Part shown: piece by piece, positions 5,246 to 19,765 of the stretch
How the letters are laid out: each line of letters begins with the position of its first letter
Position numbering within the stretch: the first letter of the stretch is position 1
Assembly (NCBI GenBank): GCA_002356435.2
Contig: AP018040.2
Coordinates: forward strand, 3,596,001 to 3,660,000
DNA: 64,000 bases
Source of the DNA: Petrimonas sp. IBARAKI
GTDB taxonomy: Bacteria > Bacteroidota > Bacteroidia > Bacteroidales > Dysgonomonadaceae
Reading direction: 5' to 3'
Notes under the pieces: model-generated
Told to the model about the DNA's origin: nothing
Databases searched by the model: none
The model's input: only the letters and a program-made list of their open reading frames with translations
Made by a program: the position numbers and the translations under genes

Positions 5246-6604
5246 TTATTCAAGTTCTTTAATCTTTATGTTCTGGAACCATACTTCATCGCCGTGATCC
5301 TGCAATAAGAGCAACCCCTCTTCTGCATTTCCGAAATCGGGCCAGTCTTTATACTTGCTGTAATTTACCAACGCATCCCACATCTGGTTGTTGCGTTCAT
5401 ATTCAATAATTTTCACTCCGTTCAACCAGTGTTCTACGTGATTTCCCTTCACAACCACCATAGCCGTATTAAAGAAGCCGGGCCTGAAAGGTTTGTTATC
5501 GGGGGCTGCAATCAAGTCGTAAAGTGAACCAAGTGTCCTGTTTCCAGCAACACCTAATTTGGCATCGGGATGTTTTTTGTCATCCAATATTTGAAATTCG
5601 CAGCCGATGGCTGAACCTGCGCCTTTGTTCAGGTTTGTGTCCACAAAATACTTGATGCCACTGTTGGCACCTTCGGTAATCTTAAAGTCCACTTTCAACA
5701 TAAAATTTTTATACGGGCGGGTGGTAACAATATCGCCACCGTTCGTAGATTCTCCTCCACCGCTTTTTTGAACTTTGAGGATTCCGTTATCGACTGACCA
5801 GCCTTTTTCGGGAAAATTATCGAGCTTTGCTCCTCGCCATCCGTTGGTAGTCTTTCCGTCCCACAACAGTTTCCATCCTTCACGTGCTTCTCGCTCGGAA
5901 ATGGTATTGGCGATGGTATTTACTTGTTCTATTCCGTCTGTGTTTTCACGCGACCTGAACTTATCGAGGTCCTGAGTCAGGATACGGATGTTTCTCCAGG
6001 AGACCGTTTTGCCTTCGAGTTGTTTGTTGTTTATTGAGTGGACCTGTAAGGCAATAAAACCCGATTTTGTGACGTCGTCCAATATATCGGCACAGGGGAT
6101 ACCGTTTACCCACGTGCGTATGGAGTTACCGATTGCCTCTATGCGTGCTTTGTTCCACTGATTATGTTTAAAGGCTTTCTGTCCAATGGGATTGACAGTC
6201 ATAGGATAAAGCCATCCTCTGCGTGCTTCATCGTAAACGCCTCCCGTCCACGATCTGTCGGAAGGGTCAATCTCGAACTGATACCCGTGCACGCGTCCGT
6301 TTTGATACTCTTTCAAGCTATTGCTTCTAAACTGAACTCCGGAGTTCAGTCCGTCGTCCACTTTAAAGTCAAATTCCAGGATAAAGTCGTCATACATCTT
6401 ATTGGTAGCCAAGAATGTATTAGGCGTTCCGCTTTTTGAAATCCCGACAATGGCCTTCTCCTGAATTTTATATTCAGCTGTTCCGTTTAGTTTGGTCCAC
6501 CCTTTCAGGTTCCTTCCGTTGAAGAGATCCTGCCATTTGGCTTCCTGAGCCGAAGCAGAAACAATAAAAACCGTTGCAATTAATACAAGAATATTCCTTT
6601 TCAT
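5246..6604 (-). CDS. Tandem DUF1080 (3-keto-disaccharide hydrolase-like) protein
   Basis: This 452-aa exported protein (Sec signal ending at SASAQ) holds two copies of the DUF1080/PF06439 beta-jelly-roll: one begins [14 protein letters not shown] near residue 24, the other [13 protein letters not shown] near residue 242. Each has the typical NSG(V/I) and late W/H positions. PF06439 members act on 3-keto-glycosides, cleaving after C3 oxidation by Gfo/Idh/MocA enzymes. The gene sits directly between two such oxidoreductases (7- and 13-nt gaps), which supports this role. Single-domain forms are about 200-260 aa, so this is an internal duplication or fusion. Confidence 0.85.
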
Positions 6605-6617
6605 AGATTACTATTTT

Positions 6618-8039
6618 TTATATTTCATAAAAATGTTCCCATCCTTTTCGTGGAGGTGCCCCTGTCAGAAAAGCATCCGCAAAAACATCGTCAACAACCC
6701 GTTTTGTTTTTCGGTCAAAGACAATTCTCCGATTCAGTCGCTGCACTGCTACCCCCAGACAGAACACCTGGCTCAGCGGGCCGGCAATCTCGAAGGGCGA
6801 GCGTGTTTTCTCTTCTCCCTGACAGGCCAATAGGAAGTTGGCGAAATGGTTCGACGGGCTTTTCGGAACAACGGGAAGCTTCCTCTCCATTTCCCGGGCT
6901 TTGTCATCCGGAATAATGCTTAACGTACTCCCGTGCGAACCACCCTTAAAAATCAGGTCTTTGCTGTAAATTTCTTTCCCCGGATTCAGCTTGGCCGGTT
7001 GAATTTTTCCGCCTCCAACACTGGGAATATTCGGATCAAGTTCCGAAACACCATAACCTTCCGGAACGGAAGGAATGTTATCCACACCGTCGTACCACGT
7101 TATGATAACGGGCGGCATTTTCCCGCGCTTTGGAAATTTAAATTCGATCGTGCTCGACATCGGGAAGAAGTAATCGTTGTGCTTGGAGAGTTTTACCGGA
7201 TTCACCTCTTCCGGCAAACCCAGGTCAAGAAACTCGTGGGCCGTATCGAGGATATGCGCTCCCCAGTCGCCCAAAGCCCCCATTCCGAAATCGTACCAGC
7301 AACGCCATTGCCCATAGTGAAAATCCTTGTTGTACTCGTGATACGACTGGGCCGACAACCAGGTGTCCCAATCCATTGTTTCCGGAATGGGCTCGGCACC
7401 AGGGAACTCCTTGATGTTCGGATCCCATCCGTGCCAGCGGCGGGCGTTGTTCATGTGCGCTGTAATGGCGGTAACATCTTTTATGATGCCGGCTTCTTTC
7501 CAGGCTTTGAATTGGAAATAATTACCTTCAGAATGTCCCTGGTTACCCATCTGCGTTACAACTTTTGGATACTTCCGGGCTGCTTTTATCATCAGTTCAA
7601 CTTCGTTAAATGTGCGGCCCATAGGTTTTTCCACATAGACATGCTTTCCTTCTTTAATGGCTAGCATCACTGATGGGAAATGAGCAAAATCGGGAGTGGC
7701 GATGGCTACCGCCTCAAACTCGTTTCCGATTTTATCGAACATCTCTCTAAAATCCTTGAAACGTTTTGCGTTTGGAAATTTAGCCATGGCTTTTTGGGTG
7801 TGCTCGGCTCCTAAATCCACATCACAGAGGGCAACAACGTTTGCCAATTTTGTTTTATCAAAATCGTTGATAATCTCCCAACCTCTGTTTCCTATCCCGA
7901 TGTGTGCCAGATTTACTTTTCGATTAGCCCCTACAATACGGCTGTAGCTAGCTGCATTGGTCTTGGTATAGATACCGCTTAACGCAATTCCCGCAGAGGC
8001 TAAAGCTGTATTTCTCAAGAAATCTCTTCTTGTCGTCAT
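6618..8039 (-). CDS. Tat-exported Gfo/Idh/MocA oxidoreductase (unit B, first copy)
   Basis: The protein starts MTTRRDFLRNTALASAG, a clear twin-arginine signal; the 13-residue upstream extension to 8078 is rejected because it precedes the RR motif and runs into the predicted promoter. It has a Rossmann fold (NLAHIGIGNRGW), the motif VYVEKPMGRT and DWGAHILDTAHEF in the C-terminal domain. It is the first gene of unit B, with a well-spaced promoter at 8076-8107. The expected role is oxidation or reduction of a sugar hydroxyl in the periplasm, feeding the adjacent DUF1080 protein. The substrate cannot be read from sequence. Confidence 0.88.
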   Translation of the reverse strand: MTTRRDFLRNTALASAGIALSGIYTKTNAASYSRIVGANRKVNLAHIGIGNRGWEIINDFDKTKLANVVALCDVDLGAEHTQKAMAKFPNAKRFKDFREMFDKIGNEFEAVAIATPDFAHFPSVMLAIKEGKHVYVEKPMGRTFNEVELMIKAARKYPKVVTQMGNQGHSEGNYFQFKAWKEAGIIKDVTAITAHMNNARRWHGWDPNIKEFPGAEPIPETMDWDTWLSAQSYHEYNKDFHYGQWRCWYDFGMGALGDWGAHILDTAHEFLDLGLPEEVNPVKLSKHNDYFFPMSSTIEFKFPKRGKMPPVIITWYDGVDNIPSVPEGYGVSELDPNIPSVGGGKIQPAKLNPGKEIYSKDLIFKGGSHGSTLSIIPDDKAREMERKLPVVPKSPSNHFANFLLACQGEEKTRSPFEIAGPLSQVFCLGVAVQRLNRRIVFDRKTKRVVDDVFADAFLTGAPPRKGWEHFYEI

Positions 8040-8075
8040 GATATATATTCTAACGTATTTGTTTTTGTAGAAAAA

Positions 8076-8107
8076 CAAAAATATAAAAAAACGCCTTTTA
8101 AAGCAAA
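8076..8107 (-). promoter_or_regulatory. Promoter of unit B (Bacteroidota -33/-7 type)
   Basis: Read on the minus strand there is TTTG (8104-8107), a 20-nt spacer and TATTTTTG (8076-8083), matching TTTG-N19..21-TAnnTTTG. Transcription should begin near 8069, about 30 nt before the ATG at 8039. A 9-bp perfect inverted repeat (8058-8066 with 8071-8079) overlaps the predicted start and could be an operator or a leader hairpin. This promoter separates unit B from the upstream LarA-family gene. Confidence 0.6.
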
Positions 8108-8142: not shown

Positions 8143-9429
8143 TCAATACTCAAACCGGTCCCTGTGCGCCCATAATCCCAAGGCGGGGCTTGAAATATAA
8201 TATACCTCTTCCCCGTCCGGCAGGATGTTAAATCCTTCTTTCAGGTGTTGGAAATTATATTTTTGCATCGTTTCATCGATATCTCCCCACCGAAAGCCCA
8301 CACTTTCAATCTCTTCCCGTGTGAGGTTTTCTGCTCCTTTACCCGGACAATAGGTGATGGAAAACCTGCCTTCCGACGACCCGTGAATAAGATGTGCCGC
8401 GGCACCCAGATTATTCCTCAACTCTTCGTTATCCTCAACTGCTTTTAATGTTTCAGGAGTTCCAAAATAACCGTATTTCCGGATCAACCGGTCTATCTCC
8501 TTATCCTCTCCGAATTCCTTTAATGCCGGCGCCAACACAACAAGCTCCCCTCCGTCGGCAATAGCCATTCGTGTTCTGTAAATGGATTTGTTTCCCAGCC
8601 AGGTGCTTTTGAACTCCGTGGGGTCTAACCACACTACGACCTTCTTCAACGGTTTTTCAACCATTTGGAAATTAACCTCGAGAGAGAGCTTGGCAGCTAC
8701 GTCAAAAACAGCGAAATCATCACCCACAAACAGTCCGTAAGTCTGTTGTTTTCCTTCTTTGTTTACACCCACTACCGTGAGCACATACACAATAGGGAGT
8801 TGTTTTGCGAAATTTTCCGAAGCATAATTGAACAGCCTGCGAACCGGGGTATCGGCACGTCCCATCATCCGCTCCATGCCATAGACCGCTCCCACATAAT
8901 GGCTCTTGTTGATCGCTTCGAATCCACCGGTTCCCACAAAAACATTCTTGTTATAGTTTGCCATCCCCACTACTTCGTGCGGAACAACCTGTCCGATAGA
9001 AAGGATAAGATCGAAATTGCCCTCAACCAACAACCTATTTACTTGAACCGGCCAATCGAAGTGTACTTTATACTCAGAAACCTCTTCCACAATTTCTGCC
9101 GAAACCCTACCAAGCGTTACCACATCGTTTCGCCAGTCGTGAATTCGTACCAAATTAGCCGGAGTTTTTCCGAACATGTGTGAGATCTGATCATCGGTCA
9201 TGGGTGTATGCGTCCCCAACGCCGGAAGAATATCGGTTAGCCTGTCACCATAATATTCCCAGCTTATTTCTGTCAGTTCACCCGCACGGCTGGGCAGGCG
9301 AGTATAATCGGGCGGGATAGCCAGCACTTTATGCTTTTCACCCAATTTACCGAAAGCCTCGCGAAGACCCGCCTCCAGGTCTTCGCGCGACAGGTTGTTT
9401 GTGGCAGAGCCGTTTTGATAATAAATCAT
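8143..9429 (-). CDS. LarA-family nickel-dependent 2-hydroxyacid racemase/epimerase, candidate gluconate/mannonate 2-epimerase
   Basis: The 428-aa protein carries the whole LarA active-site set: D41 and R44 in IPPDYTR, H74 in GTHTP, H151 in VVPHEV, K161 and H177. The H-K-H spacing of 10 and 16 equals that of lactate racemase LarA (174/184/200). LarA enzymes use the nickel-pincer cofactor NPN; the superfamily includes racemases and a D-gluconate 2-epimerase. Between gnd, a sugar kinase and a mannonate-dehydrogenase-like SDR, interconversion of mannonate and gluconate is the most economical role. The frame is open to 9513, but that overlaps gnd; the ATG at 9429 gives a 16-nt gap. No larB, larC or larE is in the window. 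Confidence 0.75.
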   Translation of the reverse strand: MIYYQNGSATNNLSREDLEAGLREAFGKLGEKHKVLAIPPDYTRLPSRAGELTEISWEYYGDRLTDILPALGTHTPMTDDQISHMFGKTPANLVRIHDWRNDVVTLGRVSAEIVEEVSEYKVHFDWPVQVNRLLVEGNFDLILSIGQVVPHEVVGMANYNKNVFVGTGGFEAINKSHYVGAVYGMERMMGRADTPVRRLFNYASENFAKQLPIVYVLTVVGVNKEGKQQTYGLFVGDDFAVFDVAAKLSLEVNFQMVEKPLKKVVVWLDPTEFKSTWLGNKSIYRTRMAIADGGELVVLAPALKEFGEDKEIDRLIRKYGYFGTPETLKAVEDNEELRNNLGAAAHLIHGSSEGRFSITYCPGKGAENLTREEIESVGFRWGDIDETMQKYNFQHLKEGFNILPDGEEVYYISSPALGLWAHRDRFEY

Positions 9430-9445
9430 CTCTTCAGATTGAATA

Positions 9446-10900
9446 CTAAACTTGGTATGTGGACGAGGCGGTATTTCCTCCGCGACCTGTCCAGTCGGTA
9501 TGGAAGAACTCACCGCGCGGTTTATCTACCCTCTCATACTGATGTGCTCCAAAATAATCACGCTGCGCCTGCAGCAGGTTAGCCGGTAAGCGGTCGTTAC
9601 GGAACCCGTCGAAATAGCACAAAGCCGATGTCAGTGCAGGAACAGGAATTCCGTTTTCGAGTGCAGTAGCGCACACCCTGCGCCAACTTTCCTGAACCGA
9701 TTCGATACTTTCTTTGAAGAACGGATCGAGCAACAGATTTTCCAGCTTGGGATTATTGTCGAATGCTTTTTTGATGTCACCCAGAAATACCGAACGGATG
9801 ATGCATCCTCCACGCCACATCAGCGCTATTCCTCCGTAATTGAGGTTCCAGTTATATTCTTTGGCAGCCTCCATCATCAGGTCGTACCCCTGTGCATACG
9901 AAATGATTTTCGCTCCGTAAATGGCCTGTTCGAGGTCGTTAATGAATTGTTGCCTGTCTCCTTTGAATGCCGGTTTTTTTCCTGCAATCACCTTCGATGC
10001 TTTTACACGAAGGTCTTTCTGAGCCGAAAGGCAGCGCGAAAACACGGACTCGCCGATAAGCGTAAGCGGGATTCCCAGATCGAGCGCCGTTACGGCTGTC
10101 CATTTCCCGGTACCTTTCTGTCCGGCCGTATCGAGAATTTTTTCTACCAAAGGGCTCCCGTCTTCGTCTTTGTACGCCAGGATATCGGTGGTGATTTCAA
10201 TAAGATACGAATCGAGTTTTCCGGCATTCCATTTTTTAAACACTTCGTGTTGTTCAAAAGCATCCATCCCCAGTAATTCCTTCATCAGGTGATATGCCTC
10301 ATTAATTATCTGCATGTCCCCGTATTCGATACCGTTATGTACCATTTTCACGAAATGTCCGGCACCGTCTTCGCCTACCCAGTCGCAACACGGAGATCCA
10401 TCCTCTACTTTTGCCGCTACCGCCTGAAAAATTTCTTTTACGAAAGGCCATGCTTCCGGCGATCCGCCGGGCATCATCGAAGGCCCGAGCAATGCACCTT
10501 CTTCACCCCCGGAAACACCGGTACCTATGTACAGTAATCCTTTACTTTCCACCTGTTTTGTACGGCGGACGGTATCCGGGAAATGGCTGTTTCCCCCATC
10601 AATAATAATATCTCCGGGTTCAAGGAGAGGAATGAGTTGTTCAATGAAATCATCCACCGGCTTTCCGGCTTTTACCAACATCATTACCTTACGAGGGCGT
10701 TCGAGTGAATCCACCAATTCTTCAAGTGAATGTGCCCCGATAAAATTCTTGCCTTTACCTCTGCCGCTCACAAAATTATCTACTTTTTCAACCGTGCGGT
10801 TATAAACGGCTACTGTGTAACCTTTACTTTCCATGTTCAGGACGAGGTTTTCGCCCATTACTGCAAGCCCAATGAGTCCAATATCTGCTTTTTGTTTCAT
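9446..10900 (-). CDS. gnd: 6-phosphogluconate dehydrogenase, decarboxylating
   Basis: This 484-aa protein starts with a Rossmann motif (GLIGLAVMGENL, residues 8-19), carries the 6PGDH signature GVSGGEEGA near residue 128 and the catalytic-lysine segment HFVKMVHNGIEY near 182, and ends with the all-helical domain. It converts 6-phosphogluconate and NAD(P)+ to ribulose 5-phosphate, CO2 and NAD(P)H in the cytoplasm. Rather than sitting beside zwf, it lies inside a run of sugar-acid genes: the LarA-family gene 16 nt downstream and a PfkB kinase ending 22 nt upstream. This points to catabolism of gluconate-type acids. Length and motifs are typical. Confidence 0.95.
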   Translation of the reverse strand: MKQKADIGLIGLAVMGENLVLNMESKGYTVAVYNRTVEKVDNFVSGRGKGKNFIGAHSLEELVDSLERPRKVMMLVKAGKPVDDFIEQLIPLLEPGDIIIDGGNSHFPDTVRRTKQVESKGLLYIGTGVSGGEEGALLGPSMMPGGSPEAWPFVKEIFQAVAAKVEDGSPCCDWVGEDGAGHFVKMVHNGIEYGDMQIINEAYHLMKELLGMDAFEQHEVFKKWNAGKLDSYLIEITTDILAYKDEDGSPLVEKILDTAGQKGTGKWTAVTALDLGIPLTLIGESVFSRCLSAQKDLRVKASKVIAGKKPAFKGDRQQFINDLEQAIYGAKIISYAQGYDLMMEAAKEYNWNLNYGGIALMWRGGCIIRSVFLGDIKKAFDNNPKLENLLLDPFFKESIESVQESWRRVCATALENGIPVPALTSALCYFDGFRNDRLPANLLQAQRDYFGAHQYERVDKPRGEFFHTDWTGRGGNTASSTYQV

Positions 10901-10922
10901 ATTATATTTTTGATTGGTTGTT

Positions 10923-11999
10923 TTATCGTTTCACCCGCGCATTTCCTTTCCAGATGCTCCAGATCATTTCTTCATCGGCAGGCTGGGCATAATCGGTGAG
11001 GAAAGTGGTGGCCAAAGCGCCACTGGCCCACGCAAACTGGATCCACTTTTCAGACGGCATTTCCTTCAGAATACTATAGAGCAATCCACCCACGAAACCG
11101 TCACCCCCCCCAATACGATCCACCACGTTAATCTTGCGCAACGGGGCAACGTGCCAGTTCTCATTTTCATAAACAATTGCTCCCCAAAGATGTTCATTGG
11201 CACTGATCACCTCCCGGAGCGTATTTGCAAATACTGAAACGTTGGGAAATGCTTTTCTTGCATTCAAAATCATCCCTTTAAAGGCATCAATGGTGTCTTC
11301 AATATTTTCACCCCCTGCTTTCGGACCCTGGACACCTAAACAGAGTTGAAAATCTTCCTCGTTTCCAATTAAGATATCCGACAGGAAAGCGATTTCAGCA
11401 AACGCCTCTTTCAACTCCTTTTCCCGGCCCTTCCAGAATGTTGCCCTGTGGTTCAGGTCAAAAGAGATAAGGGTGCCGTGTCTTTTGGCATAGCGGGCTA
11501 GCTGGAGGCAGAAATCACTTGTCTCGGGCGATAAGGCAGCTATCAATCCCGACAAATGCATGATCTGAACTCCCTCTTTGGCAAAAATCCGTTCCAAATC
11601 AAAATCTTTCACGTTCAAGGTCTTTCCTACTTCCCCTGCCCTGTCGTTCTGGACACGGGGCCCACGTAATCCAAAACCACTATCGGCAATATTGAACTGG
11701 TGACGGTAACCCCACGGGCCTCCCTGCGGGATCTCCGGCCCTTCGAAGTCAATGTTTCTTGCCCTCAGGTCGGATTTGATAAAAGCCGCAATCGGGCTGT
11801 CTTTTACAAAGGTAGTCAGCACCTTGACCGGAAGTCCGAGAGAAGATGAAATACTAGCCACATTTGTTTCGGCGCTCGTTGCCTGCATTTCGAAAATCTT
11901 GCTGCTATGTACCGGCTGGGCATTTACCGGTGTAATTCTCACTCCCATACTGGAAGCGACTATCAGTGAATACTTACATTCTCTTTTAAGTTGAAGCAT
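10923..11999 (-). CDS. PfkB-family sugar-acid kinase (KDG kinase-like)
   Basis: The 358-aa protein is a ribokinase/PfkB member: FDLNHR at 180-185 and DRIGGGD at 294-300, where D300 is the expected catalytic base and the glycine run forms the anion hole. The closest familiar pattern is 2-keto-3-deoxygluconate kinase (KdgK). No KDPG aldolase gene is nearby, and a 6-phosphogluconate dehydrogenase is next to it, so phosphorylation of gluconate (or a related acid) at C6 is an alternative. It lies 23 nt from the SDR gene and 22 nt from gnd in the same orientation. The family is sure; the substrate is open. Confidence 0.8.
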   Translation of the reverse strand: MLQLKRECKYSLIVASSMGVRITPVNAQPVHSSKIFEMQATSAETNVASISSSLGLPVKVLTTFVKDSPIAAFIKSDLRARNIDFEGPEIPQGGPWGYRHQFNIADSGFGLRGPRVQNDRAGEVGKTLNVKDFDLERIFAKEGVQIMHLSGLIAALSPETSDFCLQLARYAKRHGTLISFDLNHRATFWKGREKELKEAFAEIAFLSDILIGNEEDFQLCLGVQGPKAGGENIEDTIDAFKGMILNARKAFPNVSVFANTLREVISANEHLWGAIVYENENWHVAPLRKINVVDRIGGGDGFVGGLLYSILKEMPSEKWIQFAWASGALATTFLTDYAQPADEEMIWSIWKGNARVKR

Positions 12000-12022
12000 A
12001 ATGGTGAAGAAGTTAAGTCTGT

Positions 12023-12835
12023 TTAAATACTAAAGGCATCAAAACCGCCATCCACAATAGCAACGGTACCGGTAACAAACCTAGAAGCATCGCTCACCAG
12101 ATAGTGTAGCGTACCAAGTAGATCTGCCGGATTGCCGAAACGTCTGAAAGGAGTATGGGCAATTATGGTATTTCCTCTATCGGAATAAGTCCCGTCAGGA
12201 TTAGTAAGCAGGTTTCTGTTCTGTTCAGTAATGAAAAATCCCGGACAAAGTGCATTTACACGGAAATCTTCACCAAACTTAATAGCCAGTTCACCGGCCA
12301 TGTATTTGGTAAAGTTGGTAACAGCGGCTTTTGCTGCGCCGTATCCGGCCACACGTGATAACGGACGCAACGCCGAAGCGGATGAAATATTGATGATGTT
12401 TCCCTTTTTCTCTTTCACCATATATTCGGCGAAGATAACTGTCGGAACAACAGTCCCCATCAGGTTCAGGTCTACCACCTTACGGAAATCATCCATTTTC
12501 AAATCGAAGATGGTGTTTTTCGGTCCTATAGTGGCACCGGGCATATTGCCTCCCGCTCCGTTAATAAGGGCATCTATTTTACCGTATCTGGCAATGATCG
12601 CCTCTGCGTTTTGCCTTAATACTGCCTCATCAGTCACATCGGTTTGAAGGAACAACGCATCTCCACCCTTTGATCTTACATGCTCAATCTGCTCGTCCCC
12701 CTTTTCTTTGTTCCGGGCCAATACGGCTACCTTCGCTCCGTGCAAAGCCAAGTACTCCACCATCGATGCGCCCAAAACGCCTGTTCCGCCGGTAACAACA
12801 ATTACTTTACCTTGAATGTTAAATAGTTCGTACAT
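12023..12835 (-). CDS. SDR oxidoreductase, fructuronate reductase / mannonate dehydrogenase-like
   Basis: A 270-aa classical short-chain dehydrogenase: cofactor motif TGGTGVLG at 15-22, INGAGG at 91-96, catalytic Ser in NISSAS around 149-154, and Y165/K169 in GYGAAK. The N-terminal form (LFNIQGKVIVVTGG) is that of Bacteroidota SDRs annotated as D-mannonate oxidoreductases, which reduce fructuronate to D-mannonate in glucuronate breakdown. It is the first gene of the SDR-kinase-gnd-LarA unit and is divergent from a LacI regulator. A predicted -7 box and operator lie 37-57 nt upstream of its start. The substrate is inferred from neighbours and resemblance. Confidence 0.8.
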   Translation of the reverse strand: MYELFNIQGKVIVVTGGTGVLGASMVEYLALHGAKVAVLARNKEKGDEQIEHVRSKGGDALFLQTDVTDEAVLRQNAEAIIARYGKIDALINGAGGNMPGATIGPKNTIFDLKMDDFRKVVDLNLMGTVVPTVIFAEYMVKEKKGNIINISSASALRPLSRVAGYGAAKAAVTNFTKYMAGELAIKFGEDFRVNALCPGFFITEQNRNLLTNPDGTYSDRGNTIIAHTPFRRFGNPADLLGTLHYLVSDASRFVTGTVAIVDGGFDAFSI

Positions 12836-12871
12836 GATTTATTTTTGTTTATTAATTGAATTCACGCCTAC

Positions 12872-12887
12872 TTGTGTACGTGCACAA
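12872..12887. promoter_or_regulatory. Candidate LacI operator overlapping the SDR promoter
   Basis: TTGTGTACGTGCACAA is a 16-bp near-palindrome (14 of 16 positions symmetric) with an ACGT centre. It overlaps by 3 nt the predicted minus-strand -7 box at 12885-12892 and extends over the predicted transcription start. That location suits repression of the SDR-kinase-gnd-LarA unit by the divergent LacI protein at 13053. Confidence 0.55.
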
Positions 12888-12892
12888 AGTTA
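12885..12892 (-). promoter_or_regulatory. Predicted -7 box of the sugar-acid operon
   Basis: On the minus strand this reads TAACTTTG, a match to TAnnTTTG. No good -33 TTTG is seen at the expected distance, so the promoter may need an activator or be weak. The leader to the SDR start at 12835 would be about 43 nt. Confidence 0.4.
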
Positions 12893-13052: not shown

Positions 13053-14126
13053 ATGAAAAAACGTATCAGAATCAAAGACATAGCTGCTCAGGCTGGAGTA
13101 TCCTCGGGTACGGTGGACAGGATCCTGCACAACCGCGGCAATGTATCGGATAAAGCAAGGATAGCTGTGGAAAAGGTGTTGAAACAGGTGGGTTATAAAC
13201 CCAATATCCACTTGTCGGGCCTTTCGTTGAAAAAAACGTATGAGATAGTGATTACCACTCCTCATGCTTCTCGCGGTGAGTACTGGGAAAGTATTCATAA
13301 CGGCATTCAGGAAGCGATCGATCAGCACGAAAGCTTGCATATCAAAACCACCTACCTGACCTACGACCAATACAACATTTATTCTTGTCAGAATGTCTTT
13401 ACCCAAATCCTTATCCTTGAACCTGATGCGGTTATCATTGGTCCCACTTTTAAAGACGAAACTATTGCCCTCGCAAATAAACTGACAGAAAAAAATATCC
13501 CGTTTACATTTGTCGACTCCATGGTCGAAGGGACATCACCCCTGGCATTTTATTCAGCTAACCACTACATTTGCGGCTACCTGATGTGTAAATTGTTAAA
13601 ATCACTTATCCCGGAATCAAGTGATATCGGGGTACTTCAAGCCATCCGGATTGGGGACCAAAGTGCAAATACAAGTATCCTCCGACGAAAAGGCGCATAC
13701 GATTATTTGACTGAAACCAACTTCTCCAACCGGATACACCATATCCAGTTTTCTGTTTATGAAGCCCAGCGGAACGAAGAAAAAATGAGGGATTTTTTCT
13801 CTTCGCATCCCAACGTAAAAGGCATAATAGTGCTGAACTCCAGGGGAAATGTAATAGCAGATTTTTTGGAAGACAACAACATAAACGACGTAAAGCTGGT
13901 TGGAGTGGATTTGACAAAACCCAATATCTGTGCTTTAAAAAATGAACGAATTATCTTTCTCATTGATCAAAATCCTGACTACCAGGGATATATGGCAATG
14001 AAAACACTGCTTGAATACTTGATTTTGCAGACCAAACCCAAGGTTGAAAATTACATGCCTTTGAATATTGTAACCAAAGAGACCATTGACCTGCAACTTG
14101 AATTTAATTTTTTGAAAAAAATTTAG
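13053..14126 (+). CDS. LacI-family transcriptional regulator of the sugar-acid operon
   Basis: The 357-aa protein begins with a LacI helix-turn-helix and hinge (RIRIKDIAAQAGVSSGTVDRI, residues 4-24; conserved hinge through about 60) followed by a type 1 periplasmic-binding-protein-like effector domain (ASRGEYWESIHNGIQEA and onward). The effector is probably a sugar acid or its phosphate. It is divergent from the SDR-kinase-gnd-LarA operon, and two TGTG/CACA-type palindromes lie in the 217-nt space between them, the usual arrangement for local control. The last residues are followed by an alpha/beta hydrolase gene after 33 nt. Confidence 0.88.
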   Translation: MKKRIRIKDIAAQAGVSSGTVDRILHNRGNVSDKARIAVEKVLKQVGYKPNIHLSGLSLKKTYEIVITTPHASRGEYWESIHNGIQEAIDQHESLHIKTTYLTYDQYNIYSCQNVFTQILILEPDAVIIGPTFKDETIALANKLTEKNIPFTFVDSMVEGTSPLAFYSANHYICGYLMCKLLKSLIPESSDIGVLQAIRIGDQSANTSILRRKGAYDYLTETNFSNRIHHIQFSVYEAQRNEEKMRDFFSSHPNVKGIIVLNSRGNVIADFLEDNNINDVKLVGVDLTKPNICALKNERIIFLIDQNPDYQGYMAMKTLLEYLILQTKPKVENYMPLNIVTKETIDLQLEFNFLKKI

Positions 14127-18571: not shown

Positions 18572-19765
18572 ATGGAAATGAAAAAAGAGATACTTTACCT
18601 GCTGTTGTTTACGTTAACAACAACGCTGTTTGCCCAGAACTACGATGAAACCAAAGCCGGCAGCTATGTATTACCGGAACTGCTAAAGGCTCAAAACGGC
18701 AAAGAAATCGTGTCTGCGGAAGACTGGGACAGGATCCGCCGTCCAGAAATTCTAAAACTTTTTGAGGATAACGTGTACGGGCAGGTTCCCAAGGATTTCG
18801 ATAAAATCGAATTCAAGGTGTTGGAACAAAACTACAAGGCATTGAACGGAAAGGCCACCTATAAGCAGGTAGCTGTTGACGTTATCCGGAACAAAAAAGT
18901 TATTACTGTTCAGGTCCACTTGTTTATCCCCAACAAAATAAAAAAGCCGGTTCCTGTATTCCTGACGATTAACCACCGCGGACTGGATACGATGCAAGCA
19001 TCACCCGAAAATGAGTTCTGGCCTGCCGAAGAGATTGTGAACTCTGGCTATGCCATTGCCGGATTTGATGTAAAGAACGTCGCACCGGATCACAAAACAG
19101 ACTACGTAAATCAAATTCTCACCAAACTTTATCCCGAGCAAACCCTGCAACCAAACGGAATGCGTGCATTAGGCGCCTGGGGCTGGGGCGTCAGCCGGAT
19201 AATCGATTATTTTGAAACCGATAAGGATATAGATGCCAGTAAGGTAATTGTTGTTGGACATTCCCGTGGGGGCAAAGCTGCACTTTGGTGCGGAGCACAG
19301 GATAGACGGGTAGCCATTGCCGTATCGAACGAGTCGGGAAACTCGGGTGCAAAAATCTCCCGCAGGAATTTTGGAGAAACAGTGGAAGTAATTACCCGTA
19401 ACTTCCCGCATTGGTTTGTTCCGGGATATGCTGCTTTCGCCAACAACGAAGGAAACCTGCCTGTTGACCAACATATGCTGCTGGCATTAATGGCTCCCCG
19501 GGCAGTCTATGTCGCCAGTGCAGCCGATGATTCGTGGGCGGACCCCAAAGGACAATACCTGGCTCTGGTTGCCGCACAACCGGTTTTTAGCCTGTTTGGC
19601 CTCAAAACAAGTTTACCCGCCAACATGCCCCCGAACAACGAACAGGTCATTCAGTTGCCGTTGGGCTTTCATAACCGAGACGGCATCCACAACATGAATC
19701 TTTTCGACTGGAAACAGTTCGTCAAGTTTGCCGACGAATATTTTAAGAACAACAACAAAAAATAG
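18572..19765 (+). CDS. CE15-like glucuronoyl esterase / alpha-beta hydrolase, exported
   Basis: The 397-aa protein has a Sec signal ending at LFAQ. It shows the CE15 pattern: nucleophile motif GHSRGGKAAL with S231, an acidic residue in NESGNSGA (E254), and a late histidine (H373 in DGIHNMN, with another in HNRD just before it). CE15 enzymes hydrolyse esters between 4-O-methyl-glucuronic acid and lignin alcohols, though bacterial members vary in substrate. It is 8 nt upstream of a DUF1080 lipoprotein gene, so the two probably form one transcript. Acetyl-xylan-type esterase activity is an alternative. Confidence 0.72.
   Translation: MEMKKEILYLLLFTLTTTLFAQNYDETKAGSYVLPELLKAQNGKEIVSAEDWDRIRRPEILKLFEDNVYGQVPKDFDKIEFKVLEQNYKALNGKATYKQVAVDVIRNKKVITVQVHLFIPNKIKKPVPVFLTINHRGLDTMQASPENEFWPAEEIVNSGYAIAGFDVKNVAPDHKTDYVNQILTKLYPEQTLQPNGMRALGAWGWGVSRIIDYFETDKDIDASKVIVVGHSRGGKAALWCGAQDRRVAIAVSNESGNSGAKISRRNFGETVEVITRNFPHWFVPGYAAFANNEGNLPVDQHMLLALMAPRAVYVASAADDSWADPKGQYLALVAAQPVFSLFGLKTSLPANMPPNNEQVIQLPLGFHNRDGIHNMNLFDWKQFVKFADEYFKNNNKK

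Follow-up and report, generated by a model that had tools for sequence, protein, structure and literature searches.

A 64,000-nt window of the Petrimonas sp. IBARAKI genome (the window being the whole stretch of DNA that was analyzed; the genome is a single contig of 3.69 Mb, 99.99% complete) contains a four-gene operon encoding a short-chain dehydrogenase/reductase (SDR), a PfkB-family sugar-acid kinase, the 6-phosphogluconate dehydrogenase Gnd and a homologue of LarA, accompanied by a divergently oriented LacI-family regulator gene. Judged from sequence, the best reading of this gene set is that it probably takes fructuronate through mannonate, gluconate and 6-phosphogluconate to ribulose-5-phosphate, in place of the classical lower uronate pathway through 2-keto-3-deoxygluconate (KDG).

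All four genes lie on the minus strand, separated by 23, 22, and 16 nt. The first, at positions 12835–12023, encodes a predicted D-fructuronate reductase/D-mannonate oxidoreductase of the SDR family (NCBIfam PRK08277, 361.7 bits, cut-off 281). The kinase (11999–10923; PF00294) is predicted to be a gluconokinase, with mannonate kinase as the alternative, and is not a KdgK orthologue; no NCBIfam model matched it above cut-off, the best being NF041633 at 167 of 700 bits. Gnd (10900–9446) is an NADP-dependent decarboxylating 6-phosphogluconate dehydrogenase that matches TIGR00873 over its full length (759.4 bits, cut-off 426.7; residues 6–471 of 484). The LarA homologue (9429–8143), a predicted D-mannonate/D-gluconate 2-epimerase of LarA group 18, matches NF052594, a model named “nickel-dependent putative hexonate epimerase” (648.4 bits, cut-off 500), and passes PF09861 (Lar_N; 38.8 bits, cut-off 23.3). 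The open reading frame (ORF) listed for it opens at 9513, within gnd; the ATG at 9429 yields 428 amino acids, equal to the length called in the related locus L001. The first-pass annotation had described these genes as a single unit with gaps of 16–23 nt, and both its coordinates and its family assignments agree with the ORFs, the sequence and the family searches.

In the proposed route, UxaC, encoded elsewhere in the genome, would isomerize glucuronate into fructuronate and galacturonate into tagaturonate, with UxaE connecting tagaturonate and fructuronate. The SDR would then reduce fructuronate to D-mannonate, and LarA would invert C2, passing a hydride reversibly to a nickel-pincer nucleotide (NPN), to give D-gluconate. 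The PfkB kinase would phosphorylate gluconate to 6-phosphogluconate, from which Gnd would form ribulose-5-phosphate, CO2 and NADPH; this NADPH could repay the reductant spent by the SDR. The enzymatic activities, the order of reactions, their regulation and the cofactor source are all predictions of this analysis.

The KDG Branch, Locus Conservation and Predicted Operator

The first-pass annotation had remarked on the absence of mannonate dehydratase (UxuA) and 2-keto-3-deoxy-6-phosphogluconate (KDPG) aldolase (Eda) from the unit, and this absence extends to the whole genome. Profile searches covered this genome (G000) and 25 relatives, 16 of the 26 belonging to the window's family, Dysgonomonadaceae. 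In G000 neither UxuA (PF03786) nor KDPG aldolase (PF01081) was matched, the enolase-superfamily mannonate dehydratase, other replacement folds and other folds able to replace Eda being outside these searches; controls in Bacteroides ihuae, E. coli, and T. maritima were positive. The lack of a match in a complete genome rules out copies of these two families elsewhere in it. Among same-genus relatives, UxuA occurs in one of eight and Eda in three of eight. No KdgK orthologue was found in G000, where the KdgK of locus L049 used as a query matched the operon PfkB only (32% identity). The operon's Gnd is the single PF00393 match in the genome, which also carries UxaC, two UxaE (with an intact UxaE reading frame) and zwf.

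A comparison of uxaC loci indicates how the lower branch disappeared. The congener G008 (L124) has the order uxaC-uxaE-kdgK-eda-transporter and G003 (L126) the order uxaC-kdgK-eda-transporter; the IBARAKI genome (L121) has uxaC-uxaE-transporter, and G006 (L123) retains an 85-amino-acid kdgK remnant. The transporter belongs to the major facilitator superfamily by Pfam in L121; in the other loci it was recognized from its position and from blastn. The blastn alignment of G008 with the IBARAKI stretch jumps at a single junction from 2966, in kdgK, to 4467, in the end of eda, which shows that the KDG branch was lost by deletion and LarA-PfkB-Gnd retained. Since kdgK and eda are deleted in this lineage, LarA-PfkB-Gnd is the only complete hexuronate outlet found. 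The second UxaE gene (L122:5100–6347) lies away from uxaC between two Gfo/Idh genes, one of which matches the GH109 C-terminal domain.

LarA was present in 15 of the 26 genomes, all of which carry an operon-type Gnd (cut by contig ends in two of them). The 11 genomes lacking LarA had this Gnd in full in two cases, as a short partial match in three and not at all in six (Fisher p = 1.8e-5 for co-occurrence across the 26 genomes, uncorrected for kinship). Linkage was followed further in the best 80 of at least 577 LarA relatives, which came from at least 592 pattern matches, with gene content taken from our own ORF calling and blastp; many of these loci end at contig edges. The closest named relatives bear the titles Porphyromonadaceae, Bacteroidia, Petrimonas, and Proteiniphilum, the last being a genus of Dysgonomonadaceae. 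Anywhere in the 80 loci, PfkB was found in 71, Gnd in 67, SDR in 65, UxaE in 41 and UxaC in 31; counts for a PdxB-like protein, KdgK and Eda were 42, 17, and 12. In the 38 loci with full flanks (more than 6 kb before and more than 5 kb after LarA), SDR, PfkB, and Gnd all lie on the strand of LarA within 8 kb in 38 of 38, ORF-based calls having given PfkB in 37 and tblastn recovering the remaining one (L028). The SDR is not a single orthologue throughout, its identity to the window SDR being about 42% in many loci. UxaC, UxaE, or UxuA lies within 8 kb of LarA, on either strand, in 28 of the 38, which makes this a uronate cluster. KdgK stands alongside the operon PfkB within 8 kb in eight of the 38, and in locus L128 a single gene run holds UxaC, SDR, UxuA, PfkB, LarA, PdxB-like, Gnd, KdgK, and Eda, i.e., the genes of both routes. 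A survey of this kind had been proposed in the first-pass annotation. UxuA was found in 9 and Eda in 12 of the 80 loci.

The divergent LacI-family gene (13053–14126, plus strand; PF00356 and PF13407) encodes a predicted palindrome binder. Its predicted operator is the palindrome TTGTGCACGTACACAA at 12872–12887, the sole exact match in the window to TTGTGNACGTNCACAA; a second site, with two mismatches, lies within a gene at 18605. The palindrome overlaps a TAnnTTTG box (12892–12885, minus strand) that we take to be the Bacteroidales −7 consensus and whose edge coincides with the boundary (12892) drawn in the earlier annotation. Copies with two mismatches stand just before uxaC in the IBARAKI genome (L121:14800) and in G008 (L124:143), G006 (L123:5657), and G003 (L126:10386). 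Over the 80 loci there are 25 sites with at most two mismatches, 16 of them before SDR, UxaC, or LacI genes, vs. three, six, and zero sites in three mononucleotide shuffles. We infer that the LacI-type protein binds this palindrome, and it is likely a common regulator of the operon and uxaC-uxaE.

Predicted Substrates and Competing Readings

According to the accessible portion of PMC11770544, GntE enzymes usually carry E, V, A, and H at the positions of F175, F176, W358, and T359. The matching residues E152, V153, A345, and H346 are present in 95 of 95 aligned LarA rows, a set that counts the window's own locus twice. The equivalents of the catalytic His pair and cofactor residues R75/H108/H174/K184/H200 (R44, H74, H151, K161, and H177) are invariant in the same 95 rows, equivalence being judged by eye on an alignment to 4nar and not to LarA itself. 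This best solved relative (E 4.1e-31; PDB title “putative uronate isomerase”) is presumably a Thermotoga protein. K304, considered as the counterpart of K298, was set aside, being conserved in 87 of the 95 rows only; another lysine, K281, is invariant. By its domain, group model and catalytic and specificity residues, the protein belongs to the LarA superfamily with the GntE signature. In the accessible text of PMC7583248, mannonate epimerization was found in LarA groups 19 and 20, whereas a hexonate substrate was only hypothesized for group 18, which was not among the proteins assayed. On the signature, we predict that this group-18 LarA is a D-mannonate/D-gluconate 2-epimerase.

For the kinase, 68 operon PfkB sequences were aligned with 17 KdgK sequences from the same loci, after dropping rows outside 300–420 amino acids. 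Positions 42, 43, 103, and 118 read S, A, N, and N in 68 of 68 PfkB and G, G, Y, and Y in 17 of 17 KdgK, and in 53 columns, including some that are gaps in KdgK, the two groups differ at a level of at least 95% in each. All rows of both retain arginines R120 and R185. We take these arginines to bind the carboxylate and the four positions to line the KDG pocket. By sequence, then, the operon PfkB is not a KdgK, having neither its orthology nor a KDG-type pocket, and L128, where a gene run holds both kinases, suggests that the two have different jobs. From the operon context and the retained arginines, the operon PfkB appears to be a gluconokinase. No PfkB gluconokinase was found in the titles and abstract starts of a literature search.

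Several points weigh against the proposed route. Because zwf is present, Gnd would also have a part in the standard oxidative pathway, so that finding it does not by itself prove a gluconate input. UxuA lies within the cluster in 9 of the 80 loci, where mannonate could go either way. The palindrome occurs in only 18 of the 80, and 9 of its 25 sites are not before SDR, UxaC, or LacI genes; with 62 loci lacking a site, it can characterize no more than the closer relatives of the window. Among solved structures, those closest to the kinase in sequence include KDG kinases, with 2afb at the top, and we know of no assayed PfkB gluconokinase. Genes for LarB, LarC, and LarE were not found, which leaves the in vivo activity of LarA unexplained (see below).

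The strongest rival reverses two steps, with PfkB as a mannonate kinase and LarA epimerizing 6-phosphomannonate to 6-phosphogluconate. The operon's gene set fits either order, and cell extracts of Lactobacillus suebicus are reported to follow the kinase-first one (PMC6978723, available portion). Because LarA bears the E, V, A, H residues of enzymes that were assayed with unphosphorylated mannonate, we regard this order as unlikely. Still less probable is that LarA acts on some other C6 acid (altronate/allonate, galactonate/talonate, or an aldarate) and that Gnd is housekeeping only. The NF052594 name stops at “putative hexonate,” the available text of PMC7583248 includes no group-18 protein among those assayed, and Gnd has its place in the oxidative pathway beside zwf; on the other side stand the GntE signature, the SDR model name and UxaE, both of which lead toward mannonate, and the sharing of an operon by LarA and Gnd together with their co-occurrence (15/15 vs. 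2/11). A KDG-route operon, in which PfkB is a KDG kinase and LarA and Gnd are incidental neighbors, can draw on 2afb, a KDG kinase, as best solved relative and on the nine loci with UxuA, but is highly improbable: neither UxuA nor KDPG aldolase is matched anywhere in the complete genome, kdgK-eda is deleted, and KdgK coexists with the operon PfkB in other loci. The same missing matches and deletion, with the fixed differences from KdgK, led us to reject the KDG kinase reading of PfkB itself.

The route through gluconate and Gnd that the first-pass annotation had put forward is therefore supported by the lack of UxuA and KDPG aldolase, the kdgK-eda scar and the sole Gnd in the operon, and also by UxaC and UxaE, the similar palindrome before uxaC and the GntE signature in LarA.

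Cofactor Genes and Neighboring Genes

LarB, LarC, and LarE make NPN, the LarA cofactor (PMC7583248, accessible text). The first-pass annotation had taken this cofactor for granted, but genes for its synthesis were not found: in the complete IBARAKI genome there was no match to LarC and none above cut-off to LarB or LarE. LarC was matched, and LarE and LarB exceeded cut-off, only in G017, G021, and G022 of the 26 genomes (the weak LarE and LarB matches in the others fall far short of the cut-off and, in our reading, resemble other proteins of the PP-loop and PurE types), all three of which carry LarA; within the window's family, none of the three genes was found in any of 16 genomes (the IBARAKI genome and 15 others), 12 of which have LarA. 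Of 50 LarA-bearing genomes drawn from the 80 loci (a set that may overlap the 25 relatives and was searched for LarC alone), 43 lack LarC, comprising 29 of 29 genomes from L001–L031 (minus L020 and L026) and 14 of 21 others; because completeness is not given for these genomes, some of the absences may be gaps. Records not titled as metagenome-assembled genomes (MAGs) likewise gave no LarC match, namely P. acetatigenes DSM 18083 (L028), Seramator thermalis (L007), Proteiniphilum sp. X52 (L031), and Bacteroidales bacterium 6E (L038). These records and the single-contig, nearly complete IBARAKI genome exclude poor assembly as the cause of the missing genes.

A FastTree phylogeny built from 94 LarA rows places the 41 that belong to the family in a single clade, which also holds L036 (support 0.90). 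Every one of the 41 is LarC-negative, L036 lies outside the LarC-tested set, and LarC status switches seven times over the 64 tested tips. Nine LarC-positive rows share 246 invariant columns; in over 10% of the rows from the family, 34 of these columns are altered, and the 34 include no listed cofactor residue. The ratio of nonsynonymous to synonymous substitution rates (dN/dS) against L001 is 0.05 for LarA and 0.02–0.05 for Gnd, PfkB, and SDR; of 16 gene pairs, these four with L001 and two with L004 gave values, nine pairs being saturated in dS. LarA is under purifying selection, and this ratio, together with the invariant cofactor residues, speaks against a decaying gene. LarA has thus been kept where the known cofactor synthesis was not found.

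The missing genes lower the probability that LarA is active with self-made NPN but not its family placement, as these genes are companions and not part of the family definition, and the cofactor question stands whatever the order of kinase and epimerase. The reverse case, larB, larE, and larC without larA, is mentioned in the accessible part of PMC11796402. In the literature searched, supplements being outside its reach, there was no prior report of LarA without LarB, LarC, and LarE. We offer as a tentative suggestion, about which we remain doubtful, that in Dysgonomonadaceae and some other Bacteroidota group-18 LarA may be active without LarB-LarE-LarC synthesis, through salvage of the cofactor or a precursor, an undescribed route to NPN or another hydride carrier. 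Each of these would, to our knowledge, be new for the LarA family.

Other genes recur around LarA. A Gfo/Idh gene, here called GfoA, accompanies it in 29 of the 80 loci (e.g., L038:11322–12350) and is found in all seven LarC-positive loci tested, as well as in some LarC-negative ones. The PdxB-like gene (4-phosphoerythronate dehydrogenase) lies mostly between LarA and Gnd; the copy in L041 (11386–12525) scores 460 bits against a cut-off of 434. 4-Phosphoerythronate is an inhibitor of 6-phosphogluconate dehydrogenase, and in a B. subtilis mutant its build-up poisons growth on gluconate (PMC6449344, available portion). One may speculate from this inhibition that the PdxB-like protein guards Gnd in LarA loci, and it may equally be a vitamin B6 gene. 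Loci L037 and L058, with LarA 72–75% identical and PdxB-like neighbors, are on contigs titled as Chromatiales and Xanthomonadales MAGs, through either transfer or misbinning. Downstream of LarA in the window, a Gfo/Idh/MocA oxidoreductase (6618–8078) and a PF06439 3-keto-disaccharide hydrolase domain protein (5246–6604), both on the minus strand and identified by Pfam domain matches, are conserved neighbors, each with relatives more than 50% identical in 19 of the 80 loci; the pair (5246–8078) suggests a 3-keto glycoside cleavage tied to the uronate operon. A protein at 18572–19765 matches the glucuronoyl esterase model PF22244 and is a possible source of glucuronate.

Relation to Known Uronate Routes

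The first-pass annotation had treated the combination of these enzymes as a pathway of its own inference, but the idea is already published. The accessible text of PMC6978723 credits a mannonate-to-gluconate route ending in Gnd in Thermotoga maritima to Rodionova et al. (2012), and that of PMC7583248 reports an assay showing the activity of T. maritima GntE2; proposal and assay together make the pathway concept a known one. The proposed chemistry is the same, from uronate through fructuronate and mannonate to LarA-family C2 epimerization, a kinase and Gnd, and our control searches found the UxaC and UxaE families in T. maritima also. There, however, LarA belongs to group 20 instead of group 18, and UxuA, KDPG aldolase, and LarC, none of them found in the window genome, exceed cut-off. 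The Thermotoga kinase presumably belongs to another family than the PfkB of the window operon. LarE, likewise not found in the window genome, has been reported from T. maritima, according to the title of a paper. The IBARAKI case differs from Thermotoga in its LarA group and kinase family, in having lost the KDG branch, and in the cofactor genes that were not found.

The galacturonate pathway of Lactobacillus suebicus likewise leads from the upper isomerase steps to 6-phosphogluconate but phosphorylates mannonate and then epimerizes the phosphate, ending in phosphoketolase; its genes are not identified in the accessible portion of the source (PMC6978723). The canonical route of UxaC, UxuB, UxuA, KdgK, and Eda shares UxaC and the fructuronate-reducing step, and differs in that UxuA, KdgK, and Eda were not found in the window genome, where LarA-PfkB-Gnd stands in their place. 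The literature searched, with supplements beyond its reach, held no prior report of a uronate-to-Gnd route in Bacteroidota.

On this reading, a group of Bacteroidota would share the route put forward for Thermotoga, and one lineage has lost the lower half of the textbook uronate pathway and kept the epimerase route. Group 18 of the LarA family, hypothesized in the available text of PMC7583248 to comprise hexonate epimerases, gains a specific substrate prediction, and a PfkB-type gluconokinase is predicted beside it. The missing synthesis genes add a testable question, namely how a conserved LarA may work in organisms where searches do not find the genes known to make its organometallic cofactor.

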